This document shows, in pieces, positions 4,928 to 12,566 of a DNA stretch of 64,000 bases. Each line of letters begins with the position of its first letter. The stretch's first letter is position 1. The notes below the pieces were generated by a model. It had not been told where the DNA came from. It did not search any database and was given only the letters and a program-made list of their open reading frames with translations. The stretch spans positions 1,364,001 to 1,428,000 of the forward strand of contig NZ_CP018091.1 of assembly GCF_001885215.1 (NCBI RefSeq), read 5' to 3'. This DNA comes from Synechococcus sp. SynAce01 (GTDB taxonomy: Bacteria; Cyanobacteriota; Cyanobacteriia; PCC-6307; Cyanobiaceae). Both the position numbers and the translations under genes were made by a program.

Positions 4928-5587
4928 GGATTCCGGCGGCGCTGCTGGGCCAAGGGAGCGCTCCAGCCCATCAAGGATGAACTCAAGTCCGAAGCTGAAG
5001 GCATGAAGCCCGTCGTAGCGGCACTCGATCACCTGGCGGCTCAGCGCGTTCAAGTGGGGAAAACGATCGACGGGAAGCTGGGGCAGGAAAGAGGAGGCCA
5101 TCGCGGCGTAGTCCTGAGCCTCGATCGGAAAATTGATCTCCTGCAGGGTGAAGCCGTAAATGTGGCTGTCGACGGCGTTCCAGCCGTGATCGGCCTGCTC
5201 CAGGGAGAAACCCGCCGCCACCAGGCATCCGAGGGTGGCATCGATGGAGCGGAGCATGGCCGGCCCGGTGTTCAGCCGCGAGAGAATCGCCAGGGCGGCC
5301 CAGGGGTGGCGTAGCAGGGCCCGATGGGCCGATAGCGCCCGTTGCCGCATCGCGGCCTTCCAGTCGCCGCCGATCTCCGGCAGGGCGATCTCGCTGACCA
5401 CGATCTCAACGAGGCCGTCGATGATCGCGTCCCGGTTGGCCACGTGGTTGTAGAGCGACATCGCCTTGACCCCCAGCGCCTCGGCGAGCTTGCGCATCGA
5501 GAGGGCCGCGAGCCCCCCCTGATCGGCGATCTCCAGCGCAGCCGCCAGCACCCGCTCCCTACTGAGGGGACGTCGGGCGATCGGCAT
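4919..5587 (-). CDS. TetR family transcriptional regulator
   Basis: A 222-residue repressor with an N-terminal TetR helix-turn-helix (SMRKLAEALGVKAMSLYNHVANRDAI) and a C-terminal ligand-binding domain of the TetR_C type. I placed the start at MPIARRPLSRE; an upstream start at 5644 would add 19 poorly conserved residues. It is divergent from the oxidoreductase at 5690, with two palindromic operators in between, so it probably represses both itself and that gene. The inducer is unknown. Confidence 0.85.
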   Translation of the reverse strand: MPIARRPLSRERVLAAALEIADQGGLAALSMRKLAEALGVKAMSLYNHVANRDAIIDGLVEIVVSEIALPEIGGDWKAAMRQRALSAHRALLRHPWAALAILSRLNTGPAMLRSIDATLGCLVAAGFSLEQADHGWNAVDSHIYGFTLQEINFPIEAQDYAAMASSFLPQLPVDRFPHLNALSRQVIECRYDGLHAFSFGLEFILDGLERSLGPAAPPESSG

Positions 5588-5689: not shown

Positions 5690-6748
5690 ATGTCGAATCC
5701 GGGCCCGGCCACGACCACCATGCGGGCCATCACCCAAGACGTCTACGGCTCCGCAGACGTCCTCTCGCTCCAGACGGTTGAGAAGCCCGCCATCGGTGAC
5801 AAGGATCTGCTGATCAGGGTTCGCGCCACCTCCGTCCATGCCGGCGACTGGCATCTGATGCGTGGCAAGCCGTTTCTGGTGATTCGGCTGTTTTTCGGGG
5901 GCCTGCGCCGACCGAAGTTCCGAACACTCGGCTGTGATGTCGCCGGAACCGTCGAGGCCATTGGCAAGGGGGTCGGCCGATTTCAGGTCGGCGACGCGGT
6001 GTTCGGTGATCTCTCGGTGTGCGGCTTTGGCACCTTTGCCGAGTACGCCCGTGCCACCGAAGACGCCCTGACGCTCAAGCCCGCCACGATCTCTTTCGAG
6101 GCCGCCGGCACCGTGGCCTGCTCCGGTTTGGCAGCCCTGCAGGGCCTGCGCGACCAGGGCCAGCTCCAGGCGGGACAGCACGTGTTGATTCTTGGGGCCG
6201 CCGGTGGGGTGGGCTCGTTCGCCGTACAGATCGCCAAGGCCTTCGGGGCTGAGGTCACCGGCGCCTGCAGCGCCCACAAGATGGCCATGGTGCGCTCCAT
6301 CGGCGCTGACCACGTAATCGATTTGGCCGGCGCGGATTTCAGCGCCGGCAACCACCGTTATGACCTGATCCTCGATACAGCGGCCTATGGCCCCCTCGCA
6401 CAAGTTCTGCCTGCACTTACTCCTGACGGCACTTACGTGCTGGTCGGTGGCTCGACGGCACGCTTTTTCCAGGTGATGCTCTGGCAGGGTCCCTGGATCT
6501 CCCGAACCAGCCGTCGCCGGGTCGGCGTGTTGGCCTCGAACCCCAATCCGGCCGATCTGCAGACCCTGGCGGATCTGCTCGAGTCCGGCAAGATCGTGCC
6601 GTTCATCGATCGCCGCTGTGGCCTCACAGAGGTTCCCGAGGCCATCACGGCGCTTGAGCAGCGCCAGGTCCAGGGGAAGATCGCCATCGCGGTTGCACCC
6701 AAGAGCAGCGGCAAGGAGTCATCAGACCGGACTGAAAGAGCCGCCTGA
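5690..6748 (+). CDS. NAD(P)-dependent MDR oxidoreductase (quinone oxidoreductase-like)
   Basis: A 352-residue medium-chain dehydrogenase/reductase. It has the GroES-like N-terminal half (SVHAGDWHLMRG, TLGCDVAGTVEAIGKGV) and a Rossmann fold with LGAAGGVGSFAVQIAKAFGAEV. No set of zinc ligands is evident, which favours the quinone-reductase branch. Family similarity begins at the internal methionine at 5720, so the true start may be there. It is divergent from the TetR gene and probably its target. The 3' end overlaps ureD by 27 bases on the opposite strand. Confidence 0.82.
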   Translation: MSNPGPATTTMRAITQDVYGSADVLSLQTVEKPAIGDKDLLIRVRATSVHAGDWHLMRGKPFLVIRLFFGGLRRPKFRTLGCDVAGTVEAIGKGVGRFQVGDAVFGDLSVCGFGTFAEYARATEDALTLKPATISFEAAGTVACSGLAALQGLRDQGQLQAGQHVLILGAAGGVGSFAVQIAKAFGAEVTGACSAHKMAMVRSIGADHVIDLAGADFSAGNHRYDLILDTAAYGPLAQVLPALTPDGTYVLVGGSTARFFQVMLWQGPWISRTSRRRVGVLASNPNPADLQTLADLLESGKIVPFIDRRCGLTEVPEAITALEQRQVQGKIAIAVAPKSSGKESSDRTERAA

Positions 6749-7663
6749 GCCATCAAGCCATGGCGCCTCCTGGAATGGCCACACCCGGGGCAGAACCGGT
6801 GCCGGCAGGCCGCGCTCGGCCCGAATCCGGGCCCAGATCCTTGTGAACCAGAAGCGGGCCGCCTGGCTGGAAGGGCCCCGGTAGCGGGCCACCAGGCCCT
6901 GATCGAGGCGGCCGCAGACCATCTCCCCGTCGAGCCCGGCTCGGTCGGCGCGGCAGAGCTCCAGCAGCGCTTCGGGAACCGGCGCCGGCGCGGCCCAGAC
7001 CAAACTGCCGAACACCGGGTGGCCGCCGAGGCCATGGCCGCCCATCAGGCTGTCGCCGCCCAGCTCGATTCGGTCGGCCACACTCCAGCGTCCCTCACGG
7101 CGCACCTCCAGCAACGAGCGCCAGCACCCGCTGCCGAGGGTTTCGGCGTCGGCGCTGCGGCCCAGCCGCACCACTTCAGCCCCCAGCCAGCTGGCGCCCG
7201 CGGCCAGCTCCACCCGGCACGACTGCTCGAACAGTCCGCCGGCAAACATCACCAGTTCCTGGGGCAGCCACTCCAGATCCGCGCCCGGCTGCAGCGCAAA
7301 GCGCAGCTCCTGCCGCGTCCAGCGACCCTCGGGCGCCAGCCGCGAACGCCCGACCGAGCCATAGACCTTCTGGGCCGCCACGCTGGTGATCAGGGCGCGG
7401 CTGCCGGCGGCCAGCTCCGCCTGGATCGACAGCTCATCGCCCCCCACCAGTCCGCCGGCGGTGTGCAGCAGGGGCAGTTCGCAGCGGCCGTCGCTGAGGG
7501 CAAAGGCCTTCTGAATCTTCAGTGGTGCGGTGGTTCCGCCCTGATGGCTGGTACGACCGTTCGCTTCGCCGCTGGCCTCGAAGCGCAACAGCGCCGAACC
7601 GCGCCAGGGGGGCGAGGCCTTGGTGTTGGTGGTGGCCAGAGCCGGTGGGGGAAGGGCGGTCAT
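6722..7663 (-). CDS. ureD: urease accessory protein UreD
   Basis: Scaffold that binds apo-urease with UreF and UreG during nickel insertion. The 313-residue protein has family patterns such as LPLLHTAGGLVGGDEL, ITSVAAQKVYGS and LEWLPQELVMFAGG. I chose the ATG at 7663; a TTG at 7705 would add 14 residues. It is divergent from ureEFG, only about 80 bases away, so both transcripts probably start there. Its usual partner ureABC has been separated by a 4-kb block. Confidence 0.93.
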   Translation of the reverse strand: MTALPPPALATTNTKASPPWRGSALLRFEASGEANGRTSHQGGTTAPLKIQKAFALSDGRCELPLLHTAGGLVGGDELSIQAELAAGSRALITSVAAQKVYGSVGRSRLAPEGRWTRQELRFALQPGADLEWLPQELVMFAGGLFEQSCRVELAAGASWLGAEVVRLGRSADAETLGSGCWRSLLEVRREGRWSVADRIELGGDSLMGGHGLGGHPVFGSLVWAAPAPVPEALLELCRADRAGLDGEMVCGRLDQGLVARYRGPSSQAARFWFTRIWARIRAERGLPAPVLPRVWPFQEAPWLDGSGGSFSPV

Positions 7664-7741
7664 CGGGGCGATCGTCAGCGCCAGTTCGGTGCGCGCCAGT
7701 AGCAACGGGCACCATTGGCCGCCAGAGCGCTGGCTTAGGTG

Positions 7742-8296
7742 ATGCTCAGCCCGTGGAGCAGCTCCGTTGTCAGCGAACCCGGCGTGAGCGAGTCTGCAGT
7801 CAGTCCGATCGTGTTGATACGACGGCTGGGCCTTGTGAGCGGTAGCCCTGGCTCAGCCCTTTCCCCATACAGCGAGCCCCTGCGGCTGCCGCTCAGCGCT
7901 GACCAGCGCAGCAGCCTTCGCGGCCACCGCCGCAGTGCCTGCGGCCGCGACCTTCTCCTGCAGTTGCCCCGCGGCGGCGCGCTGGAGCCCGGCGAATATC
8001 TGGCCGGAGCCACGGGCTCGGCCCTGGTGATCGTGGAGGCGGCCCCGGAGCCGCTGCTGCAGGTGCGCAGCCCCGATCCGCTGGCCCTCCTGCAGGCCGC
8101 CTATCACCTGGGCAACCGTCACGTGGCGATGGAGCTGCAGGAGGGCCAGCTGCGACTGCTTCAGGACTCGGTGCTCGAAGAGCTGCTGCACCAGCGGGGC
8201 CTGGTCGTCGAGAGGATCACCGCACCGTTTCAGCCCGAATCCGGCGCCTATGCCAGCGCAACCAGCCATTCCCATTCCCATTCCCATTCCCACTGA
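7742..8296 (+). CDS. ureE: urease nickel metallochaperone UreE
   Basis: UreE delivers nickel to the urease activation complex. The core patterns are LPLSADQRSSLRGHRR, LLLQLPRGGALEPGEYL and the C-terminal domain with YHLGNRHVAMEL. It ends in a histidine-serine tail (five His alternating with Ser) expected to bind nickel. Similarity starts near 7811, where a GTG is available, so the first 23 residues may not be translated. The last 47 bases are also the first 47 of ureF in another frame. Confidence 0.93.
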   Translation: MLSPWSSSVVSEPGVSESAVSPIVLIRRLGLVSGSPGSALSPYSEPLRLPLSADQRSSLRGHRRSACGRDLLLQLPRGGALEPGEYLAGATGSALVIVEAAPEPLLQVRSPDPLALLQAAYHLGNRHVAMELQEGQLRLLQDSVLEELLHQRGLVVERITAPFQPESGAYASATSHSHSHSHSH

Positions 8297-9002
8297 GCCT
8301 GGCGCCCGGCGCCTGCAGCTGCTGCAGCTGGTCAGCCCGGCCTTGCCGGTGGGGGCGTTCAGCTATTCCGAGGGCCTGGAGGTGCTGGTGCAAGCCCAAC
8401 GGATCACCAGCGCTGGCGATCTGCGCAGCTGGTTGGAGGCCGAGCTCGACCGGGGTGCGATCGCGATCGAGGCGGCGGCCCTGGGCCCGTTGCAGGTGGC
8501 CTTGCGTCGATGGCGCGACGGGGAGCGTGAGCAAGATCGGCTGTCAGCGGCGAGCGCCCAGGCGGAGCTCATCGATCTCGATGGCTGGCTGCTGGCCCTG
8601 CGCGAAGCGCCGGAGCTGCGGGCCCAGCAGCGCCAGATGGGACGGTCGCTGCTGCAGTTGGTCGCTGAACTGGGCTGGCCGCTACCCAGCTCACCCGCCC
8701 CACGGCTCGCCTGGCCGGCGGCCTGGGCTTGGGCTGGCCTGGTGCTTGAGCTGGGCCAGCTGGAGTTGCTGGAGGCCTACCTCTACAGCTGGGTGGCCAA
8801 CCAGGTGAGCGCGGCGGTGCGCCTGATTCCACTCGGACCCACCCAGGGCCAGCGCCTTCAGCTCGCCCTGGCCGCTCCACTGGCGCGCCGGGCCGGCGAG
8901 CTGATCGGCGTTGATCCGCGCAGCCTCTGGAGCGGGGGCGTTGGATTAGGGATGGCCCAGCTCGGCCACGCGGAGCTCTACTCAAGGCTGTTCCGCAGCT
9001 GA
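8250..9002 (+). CDS. ureF: urease accessory protein UreF
   Basis: UreF works with UreD and UreG as a GTPase-regulating part of the nickel-insertion complex. At 250 residues it shows the diagnostic [17 protein letters not shown] segment and a C-terminal SPLW-like region (DPRSLWSGG). The only ATG before the conserved domain is at 8250, inside ureE, so the first 15 residues (an Ile-Pro repeat) are read from the ureE histidine-tail codons in a different frame. Translation is probably coupled to ureE. Confidence 0.93.
8267..8290 (+). repeat. CATTCC hexanucleotide repeat, four copies, read in two frames
   Basis: Four perfect copies of CATTCC encode His-Ser repeats at the end of UreE and Ile-Pro repeats at the start of UreF. 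Each gain or loss of a unit adds or removes two residues in both proteins without shifting either frame. Confidence 0.95.
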
Positions 9003-9121: not shown

Positions 9122-9769
9122 ATGAGCAAATTGCGTGTCGGCGTGGCCGGGCCGGTGGGCTCCGGCAAAACAGCTCTGGTCGAAGCGCTCTGCCGGCGGC
9201 TGCGGCAGCGGCTGCAGCTGGCAGTGGTCACCAACGACATCTACACCCAGGAGGATGCCCAGTTCCTCACCCGCGCTGGTGCACTGGAGCCCGAGCGGAT
9301 CCGGGGGGTGGAAACCGGCGGCTGCCCCCACACCGCCATCCGGGAAGACTGCTCGATCAACCGGGCGGCGGTCGAAGAGCTCGAACAGCAATTTCCAGAT
9401 CTGGATCTGGTGCTGGTTGAAAGCGGCGGCGACAATCTGGCGGCCAGCTTCAGCCCCGAACTGGTGGATCTCTGCATCTATGTGATCGATGTAGCCGCTG
9501 GAGACAAAATCCCGCGCAAGGGCGGTCCTGGCATTACCCGCTCCGACCTGTTGGTGATCAACAAAATCGATCTTGCCTCCATGGTGGGCGCCAACCTGGA
9601 GGTGATGCAACGCGACACCGAGCGCATGCGTGGCGGTCGACCCTGGTGCTTCACCAACTTGCGCAGTGGCGAGGGGCTTGAGCAGGTCGAGGCCTTTCTG
9701 TGGCGCCAACTACCGAAATCCATCCCTGATCATGACCAACAAGTGCTGGAAGCGGGATCTCTGCCTTGA
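9122..9769 (+). CDS. ureG: urease accessory GTPase UreG
   Basis: SIMIBI-class GTPase that drives nickel insertion into urease. The 215-residue protein starts [17 protein letters not shown] (P-loop GPVGSGKT) and contains the nickel-binding [14 protein letters not shown] motif with its Cys-Pro-His, and the guanine-specificity motif NKID. The ATG at 9122 is chosen because the P-loop directly follows it; sequence further upstream is not UreG-like. It is the last gene of ureEFG, 119 bases after ureF. Confidence 0.97.
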
Positions 9770-9794: not shown

Positions 9795-9836
9795 GTGCTT
9801 TTGACTACACGCCCTAAAAGGCATGCTCCCTAGGTT
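9795..9836 (+). promoter_or_regulatory. NtcA-activated promoter of urtA
   Basis: GTG-N8-TAC at 9795-9808, one base from the NtcA consensus GTA-N8-TAC, is followed after exactly 22 bases by a -10 box TAGGTT (9831-9836, pattern TAnnnT). This is the classic layout of NtcA-activated promoters. Transcription should start near 9843, which rules out a urtA start at 9823 and supports the ATG at 9886. It implies induction of the urea transporter under nitrogen limitation. Confidence 0.82.
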
Positions 9837-9885
9837 CACTCAGCCGACAGCATTGCGGCGTTTCCATCATTTTAAACAAGCCCCA

Positions 9886-11181
9886 ATGGTTTCCATTTCC
9901 CAACGACAACTCTTCGCAGGATTTGCCGCAACTGTTCTCGGAGTTTCACTCTCTGCCTGTGGTGGCGGAACGGAAACGACCACAGACTTTGATGGTGAAA
10001 TCAAGGTTGGAATTCTCCACTCCCTGAGTGGAACGATGGCAATTTCTGAAACCACCCTCAAGGAAGTTGAGGAGATGGCCATTAAAGAAATCAATGACGC
10101 CGGTGGTGTCACGGTCGCAGATAAGAATTACAAGATCGTTCCGGTCATCGAAGATGGTGCTTCAGACTGGCCCACCTTCGCCGAGAAATCCCAGAAACTG
10201 ATCGATTCCGACGGCGTCAACGTTGTCTTTGGTGGTTGGACTTCGGCAAGCCGTAAGGCGATGTTGCCGGTGTATGAGGCCGAAAACCACATGCTCTTCT
10301 ACCCCATTCAATATGAGGGTCAGGAATGTTCGAAAAATATTTTCTACACCGGAGCCGTTCCGAACCAGCAGGCTGAGCCTGCGGTGCAGTGGCTGATGGA
10401 CACCTACGGCGAGTCCCTCGGCAAGAAGGTCTACCTGGTGGGTTCCGACTACGTCTACCCAAGAACAGCCAACACGATCATCAAAGAGCAGATGAAAGCT
10501 CTTGGTGGTGAAGTTGTTGGTGAAGATTATATTCCCCTCGGCAACACGGAGGTTGCTCCCATCATCGCCAAGATCAAGGAAGTCTTCCCTGAGGGCGGCA
10601 TCATCATCAACACCTTGAACGGTGATTCCAACGTTGCCCTCTTCAAGCAGTTCCAGGCTGCGGGCATTGATCCTGAGAAGTACAAGATCATGTCGTTCTC
10701 GATCGCTGAGGAAGAAATTCGTCAGATCGGGCCTGAATTCACAGCTGGCACCTACGCCGCCTGGAATTACTTCATGAGCCTGGACACCCCAGCCTCCAAG
10801 AAGTTCGTCGAAGATTTCCAAGCCGCCTACGGTGACGACCGCGTGGTGGGCGACCCTGCGGAGTCGGCCTACAACATGGTTTACCTCTGGAAGAATGCCG
10901 TCGAAAAAGCCGGCACCTACGACGATCTCGACAAGGTCCGCGAGACCATGATTGGCATCACCTTCGATGCTCCCCAGGGTGAAATTGAGATGTTCCCGAA
11001 CCATCACACCTCCGAACGGGTGATGATCGGCGAAGCTGAACCCAGCGGCCAGTTCAAGATCCTCCAGGACAGCGGCACGGCCATCCCGCCGCTTCCCTGG
11101 AATCAGTTTGTGCCTGAAACCAAGGGCTACACCTGTGATTGGACCCAGGATCGTCCTGATGCCGGCAAGTTCCGGATGTGA
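9886..11181 (+). CDS. urtA: urea ABC transporter substrate-binding lipoprotein UrtA
   Basis: Periplasmic urea receptor, 431 residues, of the branched-chain amino acid receptor family. An N-terminal lipoprotein signal ends in the lipobox LSAC with Cys25, followed by IKVGILHSLSGTMAISE, the typical start of the Type 1 periplasmic fold. Further conserved stretches are FGGWTSASRKAMLPVYE and FYPIQYEGQE. It is first in urtABCDE, immediately behind an NtcA-type promoter. The long gap with two hairpins behind it suggests it is made in excess over the permease genes. Confidence 0.97.
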   Translation: MVSISQRQLFAGFAATVLGVSLSACGGGTETTTDFDGEIKVGILHSLSGTMAISETTLKEVEEMAIKEINDAGGVTVADKNYKIVPVIEDGASDWPTFAEKSQKLIDSDGVNVVFGGWTSASRKAMLPVYEAENHMLFYPIQYEGQECSKNIFYTGAVPNQQAEPAVQWLMDTYGESLGKKVYLVGSDYVYPRTANTIIKEQMKALGGEVVGEDYIPLGNTEVAPIIAKIKEVFPEGGIIINTLNGDSNVALFKQFQAAGIDPEKYKIMSFSIAEEEIRQIGPEFTAGTYAAWNYFMSLDTPASKKFVEDFQAAYGDDRVVGDPAESAYNMVYLWKNAVEKAGTYDDLDKVRETMIGITFDAPQGEIEMFPNHHTSERVMIGEAEPSGQFKILQDSGTAIPPLPWNQFVPETKGYTCDWTQDRPDAGKFRM

Positions 11182-11408: not shown

Positions 11409-12566
11409 GTGGAACTTTTCTTTTCTCAAATTTTAGATGGCCTCAGCATTGCCTCAGTGCTGCTTTTGGCCGCTACTGGATTGGCCATTGTCTTTGGCTT
11501 GATGGGTGTCATCAATCTCGCCCACGGTGAGCTGATGATGTTGGGTGCCTATGTCACTTTTGTGGTTCAAAATCTGTTCAAGCCCCTGGGCCCGGCGATT
11601 TTCGAACTGTATTACCCGGTGGCGTTGATCCTTGCCTTCATTATCACGGCCATGGTTGGGGTGTTGCTGGAGCGAACCCTGATCAGAAAGCTCTACGGCA
11701 GGCCTCTTGAAACATTGCTGGCCACCTGGGGTGTCAGCTTGGTGCTGATTCAGTTGATTCGCAGCATCTCAACGTCCATGCTGATTGGCATCCTGGCGGC
11801 CGTCGCGATTGGTTTGATTGGAAGTAAGTTTATGGCCAAAAAGATTGGTGATAAGCCGTATTTCACCTATCTCAATGGTTTGATGTGGGCTTTTTCTCTG
11901 GGCATTGGCTTGATTGTTGTCAACTCCATGTCTTCGGTGCGGCAGCTCTCGTCGCCCTGGTTTGGTCCTCGAAACCTGGATGTCAGCCCACCGAAATGGC
12001 TGCAAGGCAGTTGGGGCAAGATCGGTACCGTTGAGTTGCCTGGTATTCGGGTCTTCATTATTCTTCTATCAATCTTTTTGCTCATCGGTGTTCTCTGGTT
12101 TCTCAGTAAGAGTGCATGGGGGTTGCGGATTAGGGCGGTCACCCAGAACAGGCAGATGAGCAATTGCTTGGGAATTCCAACTGATCGTGTCGACAGCATT
12201 ACCTTCGGGCTTGGTTCTGGTTTGGCCGGTGTCGCCGGTGCTGCGATTACGCTGTTGGGTTCGGTGGGTCCCAACCTCGGTACGGCTTATATCGTTTCCT
12301 GTTTCATGGTGATTGTGCTTGGGGGCGTTGGCAATCTGCTCGGCACCGTGCTGGCTTCAATCATGCTGGGCATCATTCAATCTGTTGTCGGTTCGGGCTC
12401 AATCCTGATCGTCTTCCCCAACCTGCCGCCGGCGCTTAAAGGGGTGGTTGAATTCTTTGCCACCACCAGTATGTCGTTGGTTCTGGTCTTCATCTTTATT
12501 ATCGTCTTTCTGCAGTTTAAGCCGAATGGGATGTTCCCTCAAAAGGGACGTTCAGTCGATGCTTGA
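11409..12566 (+). CDS. urtB: urea ABC transporter permease UrtB
   Basis: Inner-membrane permease of the LivH family, 385 residues with many hydrophobic segments. The motif GLMGVINLAHGELMMLGAYV near the N-terminus and the later GLGSGLAGVAGA and GGVGNLLGT segments are typical. The start is GTG at 11409, directly before the conserved MELFFSQILDGLS. It pairs with UrtC to form the urea channel energised by UrtD and UrtE. Confidence 0.96.
   Translation: MELFFSQILDGLSIASVLLLAATGLAIVFGLMGVINLAHGELMMLGAYVTFVVQNLFKPLGPAIFELYYPVALILAFIITAMVGVLLERTLIRKLYGRPLETLLATWGVSLVLIQLIRSISTSMLIGILAAVAIGLIGSKFMAKKIGDKPYFTYLNGLMWAFSLGIGLIVVNSMSSVRQLSSPWFGPRNLDVSPPKWLQGSWGKIGTVELPGIRVFIILLSIFLLIGVLWFLSKSAWGLRIRAVTQNRQMSNCLGIPTDRVDSITFGLGSGLAGVAGAAITLLGSVGPNLGTAYIVSCFMVIVLGGVGNLLGTVLASIMLGIIQSVVGSGSILIVFPNLPPALKGVVEFFATTSMSLVLVFIFIIVFLQFKPNGMFPQKGRSVDA

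Follow-up and report, generated by a model that had tools for sequence, protein, structure and literature searches.

In the window, i.e., the whole 64-kb stretch of DNA analyzed here, a CATTCC repeat encodes part of the C-terminal tail of UreE, and we consider it probable (roughly 0.7) that the spread of this repeat erased the usual start of ureF and that UreF translation falls back to an upstream ATG at position 8250. An earlier note on this DNA had read the repeat as a device tuning both proteins in frame; the repeat-overwritten ureF start looks instead like an evolutionary accident.

The urease accessory locus and its repeat

The host genome is a single contig of 2.75 Mb, and in the window ureE, ureF, and ureG are encoded on the plus strand, with ureD diverging from them on the minus strand (Table 1). 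According to the ORF list and Pfam, ureD, ureE, and ureG are intact ORFs. UreF, read in the +1 frame relative to ureE, belongs to its family with a domain score of 117.5 bits against the Pfam cutoff of 23.3, and its core is intact, with every alignment-invariant residue retained. Downstream of ureG there are two ORFs (9823 to 11181 and 11409 to 12566), which we take to resemble the substrate-binding protein and the permease of a urea ABC transporter (urtA and urtB).

Table 1. Features of the ureE-ureF junction and of the neighboring genes (positions in the window)
Feature	Position	Strand	Basis and remarks
ureD, divergent neighbor	6722..7705	-	Pfam UreD, E 1.2e-49
ureE, nickel metallochaperone	7739..8296	+	ORF list; Pfam UreE_C, E 3.6e-27; putative GTG 5' end, mechanically listed
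ureF, urease accessory protein	8250..9002	+	ORF list; Pfam UreF, E 8.3e-34; from the only canonical start
Candidate fall-back UreF start, ATG	8250..8252	+	Only canonical start before the core; arises from the Tyr-Ala codons TAT GCC of the UreE GAYA motif
Perfect hexanucleotide array, 4.5 copies of CATTCC, 27 bp	8266..8292	+	Tandem Repeats Finder
ATT at the erased ureF start (ATG in the sister L002 and relatives, 11-nt overlap)	8286..8288	+	Alignment, codon comparison, overlap census
UreE stop codon, TGA	8294..8296	+	
ureG, GTPase	9122..9769	+	Pfam cobW/HypB/UreG, E 4.8e-39

Within the array, four full CATTCC copies begin at 8267, 8273, 8279, and 8285, and they read His-Ser in the UreE frame and, if UreF begins at ATG 8250, Ile-Pro in the UreF frame; on this double coding, and on its exact coordinates, the earlier note was right. 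Apart from the array, no perfect period-6 run in the window reaches 18 bp, and the longest such run found in 100 first-order Markov sequences measured 17 bp. Moreover, with codon frequencies taken from 49 long ORFs in the window, the probability of four identical hexamers given the peptide HSHSHSHS is about 0.005, and that of four CAT-TCC pairs specifically is about 2e-5. An origin of the array by chance was rejected on the basis of the Markov sequences and of these two probabilities.

There is nothing remarkable about the array being open in two frames, since the bare CATTCC unit is free of stops in all six frames. Among the 105 UreE tails of the stricter set described below, the array ranks second in perfect period-6 length, and long runs also occur in tails where ureF is untouched, namely, in L096, which has the longest run (34 bp), and in L023 (25 bp). 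Furthermore, the 18-base CATTCC trimer was found in 5 of 400 family genomes, in two of which it reads His-Ser in other long frames, and the idea that the array is peculiar to the ure locus was accordingly rejected. Given these long runs and trimers elsewhere, the array can be regarded as ordinary, slippage-prone His-Ser coding, and its only unusual feature is its collision with the ureF start. At a non-ure site, L151 (G322:C13 near 5441 to 5470, minus strand), five perfect CATTCC copies are followed by CTATTC-like copies, in short frames only.

The ureF start in the window

With a canonical start, ureF would begin at ATG 8250 and share 47 nt with ureE, up to and including the UreE stop codon. 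Between the in-frame stop at 8028 and the conserved core of UreF, no other ATG, GTG, or TTG is present; the first canonical starts beyond 8250, TTG 8343 and GTG 8349, both lie within the conserved SPALPVG, and a start of any of these three kinds 3' of the repeat was therefore rejected. With 8250 as the only canonical start remaining, UreF is expected to be 12 residues longer. Since this start precedes the repeat, changes by whole units would alter both proteins in frame, as the earlier note had proposed. At 8250 no Shine-Dalgarno-like pairing was detected (best duplex, -1.7 kcal/mol), and no Shine-Dalgarno sequence was found at 8286; the predicted RNA accessibility is 0.38 at 8250, versus 0.62 to 0.66 at the ATT codons between 8274 and 8286.

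Junctions across the family

For comparison, 400 family genomes were sampled, 296 of which gave a UreF match, and 148 loci were examined (30, plus 38 named ones, plus 80 from further higher-scoring matches, with weaker matches left out). The junction could be read in 147 of the 148 (L085, at a contig end, was dropped), which yielded 111 distinct junctions with a relaxed UreF motif. An earlier set of 105 junctions relied on a stricter motif, by which 8 loci were dropped, in addition to one without a UreE tail; the statistics on start ATGs and on the conservation of 8250 were computed on this smaller set.

The 111 junctions fall into three frame classes, with 81 in class 2, 4 in class 0, and 26 in class 1, to which the window belongs. 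In class 1, counting from the nearest in-frame start to the last base of the UreE stop, 14 junctions have an overlap of 11 nt, 7 of 8 nt, and 4 of 17 nt; in the window it is 47 nt. Thus, 25 of the 26 class-1 junctions (24 of 25 in the smaller set) have an in-frame ATG inside the UreE tail at one of these three short distances, the window being the sole exception. Of the class-2 junctions, 71 have their nearest start at 4 nt and 9 at 1 nt, and L003 has none. A 14-nt overlap is absent among the 26 class-1 junctions.

In the 105-junction set, an ATG at 8 to 17 nt in the class-1 frame occurs in 24 of 25 class-1 junctions versus 10 of 80 others (Fisher p of about 1e-14, with kinship ignored), which suggests that the class-1 ATGs are real starts. 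In particular, 22 of these 24 starts have the form CAT-G (His-Gly, His-Asp, or His-Ala) and 2 have the form GAT-G; a CAT-Gnn start embedded in a His-rich UreE tail can be seen, for instance, in L002, L005, L045, L050, L077, L104, and L117. Since the class-1 ATG and the end of the stop are only 8 to 17 nt apart, most of the UreE tail would be free to vary without affecting UreF, and where ureF is untouched the tails are indeed highly variable in both sequence and length. The tails of L049, L053, and L029 are very long, reaching up to about 90 residues past PEAGAY, with His-Ser-Ser-Gly-like and Gly-Pro-Ser-Leu-like repeats. L132 departs from the rest of the sample in that UreE and UreF share one frame and about 273 nt separate the UreE stop from the UreF core downstream. 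In a tree built from the 48 UreF rows with distinct junctions that were long enough, the frame class switches at least five times.

An ATG of the 8250 type results wherever TAT precedes a G-codon, as is the case in 17 of 25 class-1 versus 29 of 59 class-2 junctions (p 0.15); selection maintaining the ATG at 8250 was rejected on this comparison. The sister L002 has a counterpart of this ATG, but another start lies nearer its UreE stop.

Nearest relatives and direction of change

The nearest relative of the window is L002, which is identical to, and the same stretch as, contig JABMPN010000061.1 (L031). Its UreE ends in CAC TCC CAT TCC CAT GGC CAC TGA, with the ATG at the 11-nt place, and the UreE of the window ends in CAT TCC CAT TCC CAT TCC CAT TCC CAC TGA. 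The window therefore has one whole unit more than L002; in addition, TCC replaces GGC in the last pair, so that the ATG becomes ATT at 8286. An invariant repeat is thus rejected. On the variation between close strains that would mark a slippage-driven contingency (phase-variable) locus, and that the earlier note had proposed to look for, the comparison, with one strain per species, gives a difference of one unit from one sister (UreF 92% identical).

In the UreF tree, L001 and L002 are sisters (SH-aLRT 96), adjoining L003 plus L004 (92). The congener L003 also carries CATGGCCACTGA, which is present too in L084 and L117, both of other genera. Since L002 and L003 share CATGGCCACTGA, the CAT TCC of the window is most simply derived, and the ATG would have been lost in the lineage of the window, a polarity based on few close relatives (four genomes in the genus). 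L003 itself keeps CATGGCCACTGA with the downstream frame shifted, and its ureF apparently starts from a GTG 2 nt past the stop, which represents a change of junction frame within one genus.

From TAT 8249 to the stop, and leaving the extra unit aside, four UreE codons differ between the window and L002, two of them silently. Over the same stretch five UreF-frame codons differ, none of them silently; since all five changes alter the residue, the Ile-Pro frame appears to be without visible constraint, although the numbers are very small.

Proposed route and alternative explanations

We propose that the ancestral ureF start was a CAT followed by a G-codon in the His-rich UreE tail, 8 to 17 nt before the end of the stop, so that ribosomes ending UreE would find the ATG of ureF only a few codons behind them, which is presumably the situation in most class-1 relatives. 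The CAT-TCC unit, spreading by slippage or gene conversion, would then have overwritten the last His-Gly pair, converting CAT GGC to CAT TCC and removing the ATG. UreF translation would most likely move to the next in-frame ATG upstream, 8250, itself a by-product of Tyr-Ala codons, with the overlap growing from 11 to 47 nt and UreF acquiring a Pro-rich N-terminal extension of 12 residues, which is probably unstructured and tolerated. In the AlphaFold model of UreF there is no secondary structure before residue 17, and the mean pLDDT is 62 for residues 1 to 10 and 83 for residues 11 to 20; the latter value suggests that the junction is not wholly disordered. An N terminus of such length has a precedent in H. 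pylori UreF (2wgl), where 33 residues precede the position equal to residue 23 of the window UreF.

Several points count against the use of 8250: its weak ribosome-binding features and lower predicted accessibility, the lack of clear conservation of its ATG, and its distance of 47 nt from the stop, at which tight coupling with UreE termination would be lost. In one E. coli reporter (PMC2268962), placing the stop 40 nt upstream of the start reduced coupling to background; since that reporter has the opposite geometry, a loss of coupling in the window can only be extrapolated from it.

The main rival to a start at 8250 is initiation at the old place, on the AUU at 8286 or on another AUU of the repeat (one every 6 nt), by reinitiation, at a lower level and without extension of UreF. 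A start on the ATT at 8286, 8 nt ahead of the UreE stop codon, would give an overlap of 11 nt, the most frequent length in the class (14 of 26), and the repeat region is predicted to be more open than 8250; AUU is, moreover, the known start of the gene for IF3. On the other hand, AUU is a weak start, the Shine-Dalgarno sequence is absent at 8286, and a canonical ATG is on offer 36 nt upstream. IF3 has also been reported to inhibit both initiation at noncanonical starts and reinitiation without a Shine-Dalgarno sequence. On balance, we hold AUU initiation to be unlikely. It would be, to our knowledge, a rare natural case outside infC. An elaboration of it, by which the repeat is a ladder of near-cognate starts, with each CATTCC unit adding one ureF-frame AUU as a weak reinitiation site just before the UreE stop and the number of units setting the dose of UreF relative to UreE through initiation, seems very unlikely.

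The loss of the usual ureF start could also mean that UreF synthesis is impaired, as a step toward loss, or that a UreE-UreF fusion is produced by frameshifting near the UreE stop. An engineered UreE-UreF fusion of K. aerogenes is reportedly functional. However, the UreF core has kept its invariant residues, ureD, ureE, and ureG are intact, and no known slippery site was identified, by eye, at CAC TGA, and we regard this explanation as highly improbable.

The least probable explanation, in our judgment, is selection on the repeat number as a switch or rheostat that changes the UreE metal tail and the UreF N terminus together. The array is perfect, it differs by one unit from that of the sister, and both frames stay open under whole-unit changes, but this last property also means that on/off switching by frame is not expected, since hexamer units preserve both frames. 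Moreover, 25 of the 26 junctions of the same class, including that of the nearest relative, start ureF within 8 to 17 nt of the stop end, which speaks against a tuning device; the Ile-Pro N terminus, taken by the earlier note as part of it, occurs in only one of the 111 junctions, that of the window's genome, and is a consequence of the erased ATG. In addition, the UreF-frame codons bear no sign of constraint, UreE tails vary widely where ureF is untouched, and the comparison covers one strain per species. The device would be, at most, a private by-product.

Comparison with known systems

The junction offers a natural, polarized example of a simple repeat in the C terminus of one gene that erases the start of its neighbor and lengthens the overlap. 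More generally, the picocyanobacterial ureF start is often written into the His-rich UreE tail, by virtue of which tail evolution and ureF initiation would constrain each other, and annotators will need to check UreF N termini in this clade. In the open literature we found no work on a ureE-ureF junction like that of the window or on repeats erasing start codons, and the word "overlap" is absent from a review of cyanobacterial urease genes (PMC6737895).

Like other His-rich UreE C-terminal tails, the tail of the window occupies the same place, in a family where length and composition vary; unlike them, it has its codons homogenized to one hexamer over 27 bp. Short coupled overlaps are described in PMC12548453 as enriched at spacings of -4, -1, and -8 nt, and short NTGA overlaps as instances of termination-reinitiation coupling (PMC12548453 and PMC10666635). 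Most junctions of the family resemble these (of the 81 class-2 junctions, 71 have their nearest start at 4 nt and 9 at 1 nt, and 7 of the 26 class-1 junctions have it at 8 nt), whereas the window has an overlap of 47 nt and lacks a canonical start near the UreE stop.

The closest parallel is the origin of long phase-1 same-strand overlaps as outlined in PMC2542354 and PMC3887535, where a start codon is lost and the gene is extended to an upstream start. As in those overlaps, the downstream start is disrupted (relatives keep an ATG at 8, 11, or 17 nt where the window has none), the next in-frame canonical ATG, 8250, lies within the upstream gene ureE, and the +1 overlap grows. Different from the cases outlined there, the start in the window appears to have been removed when a coding tandem repeat spread, and sisters still show the older state. 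The route to a longer overlap is already known, and the window is a well-polarized new example of it.
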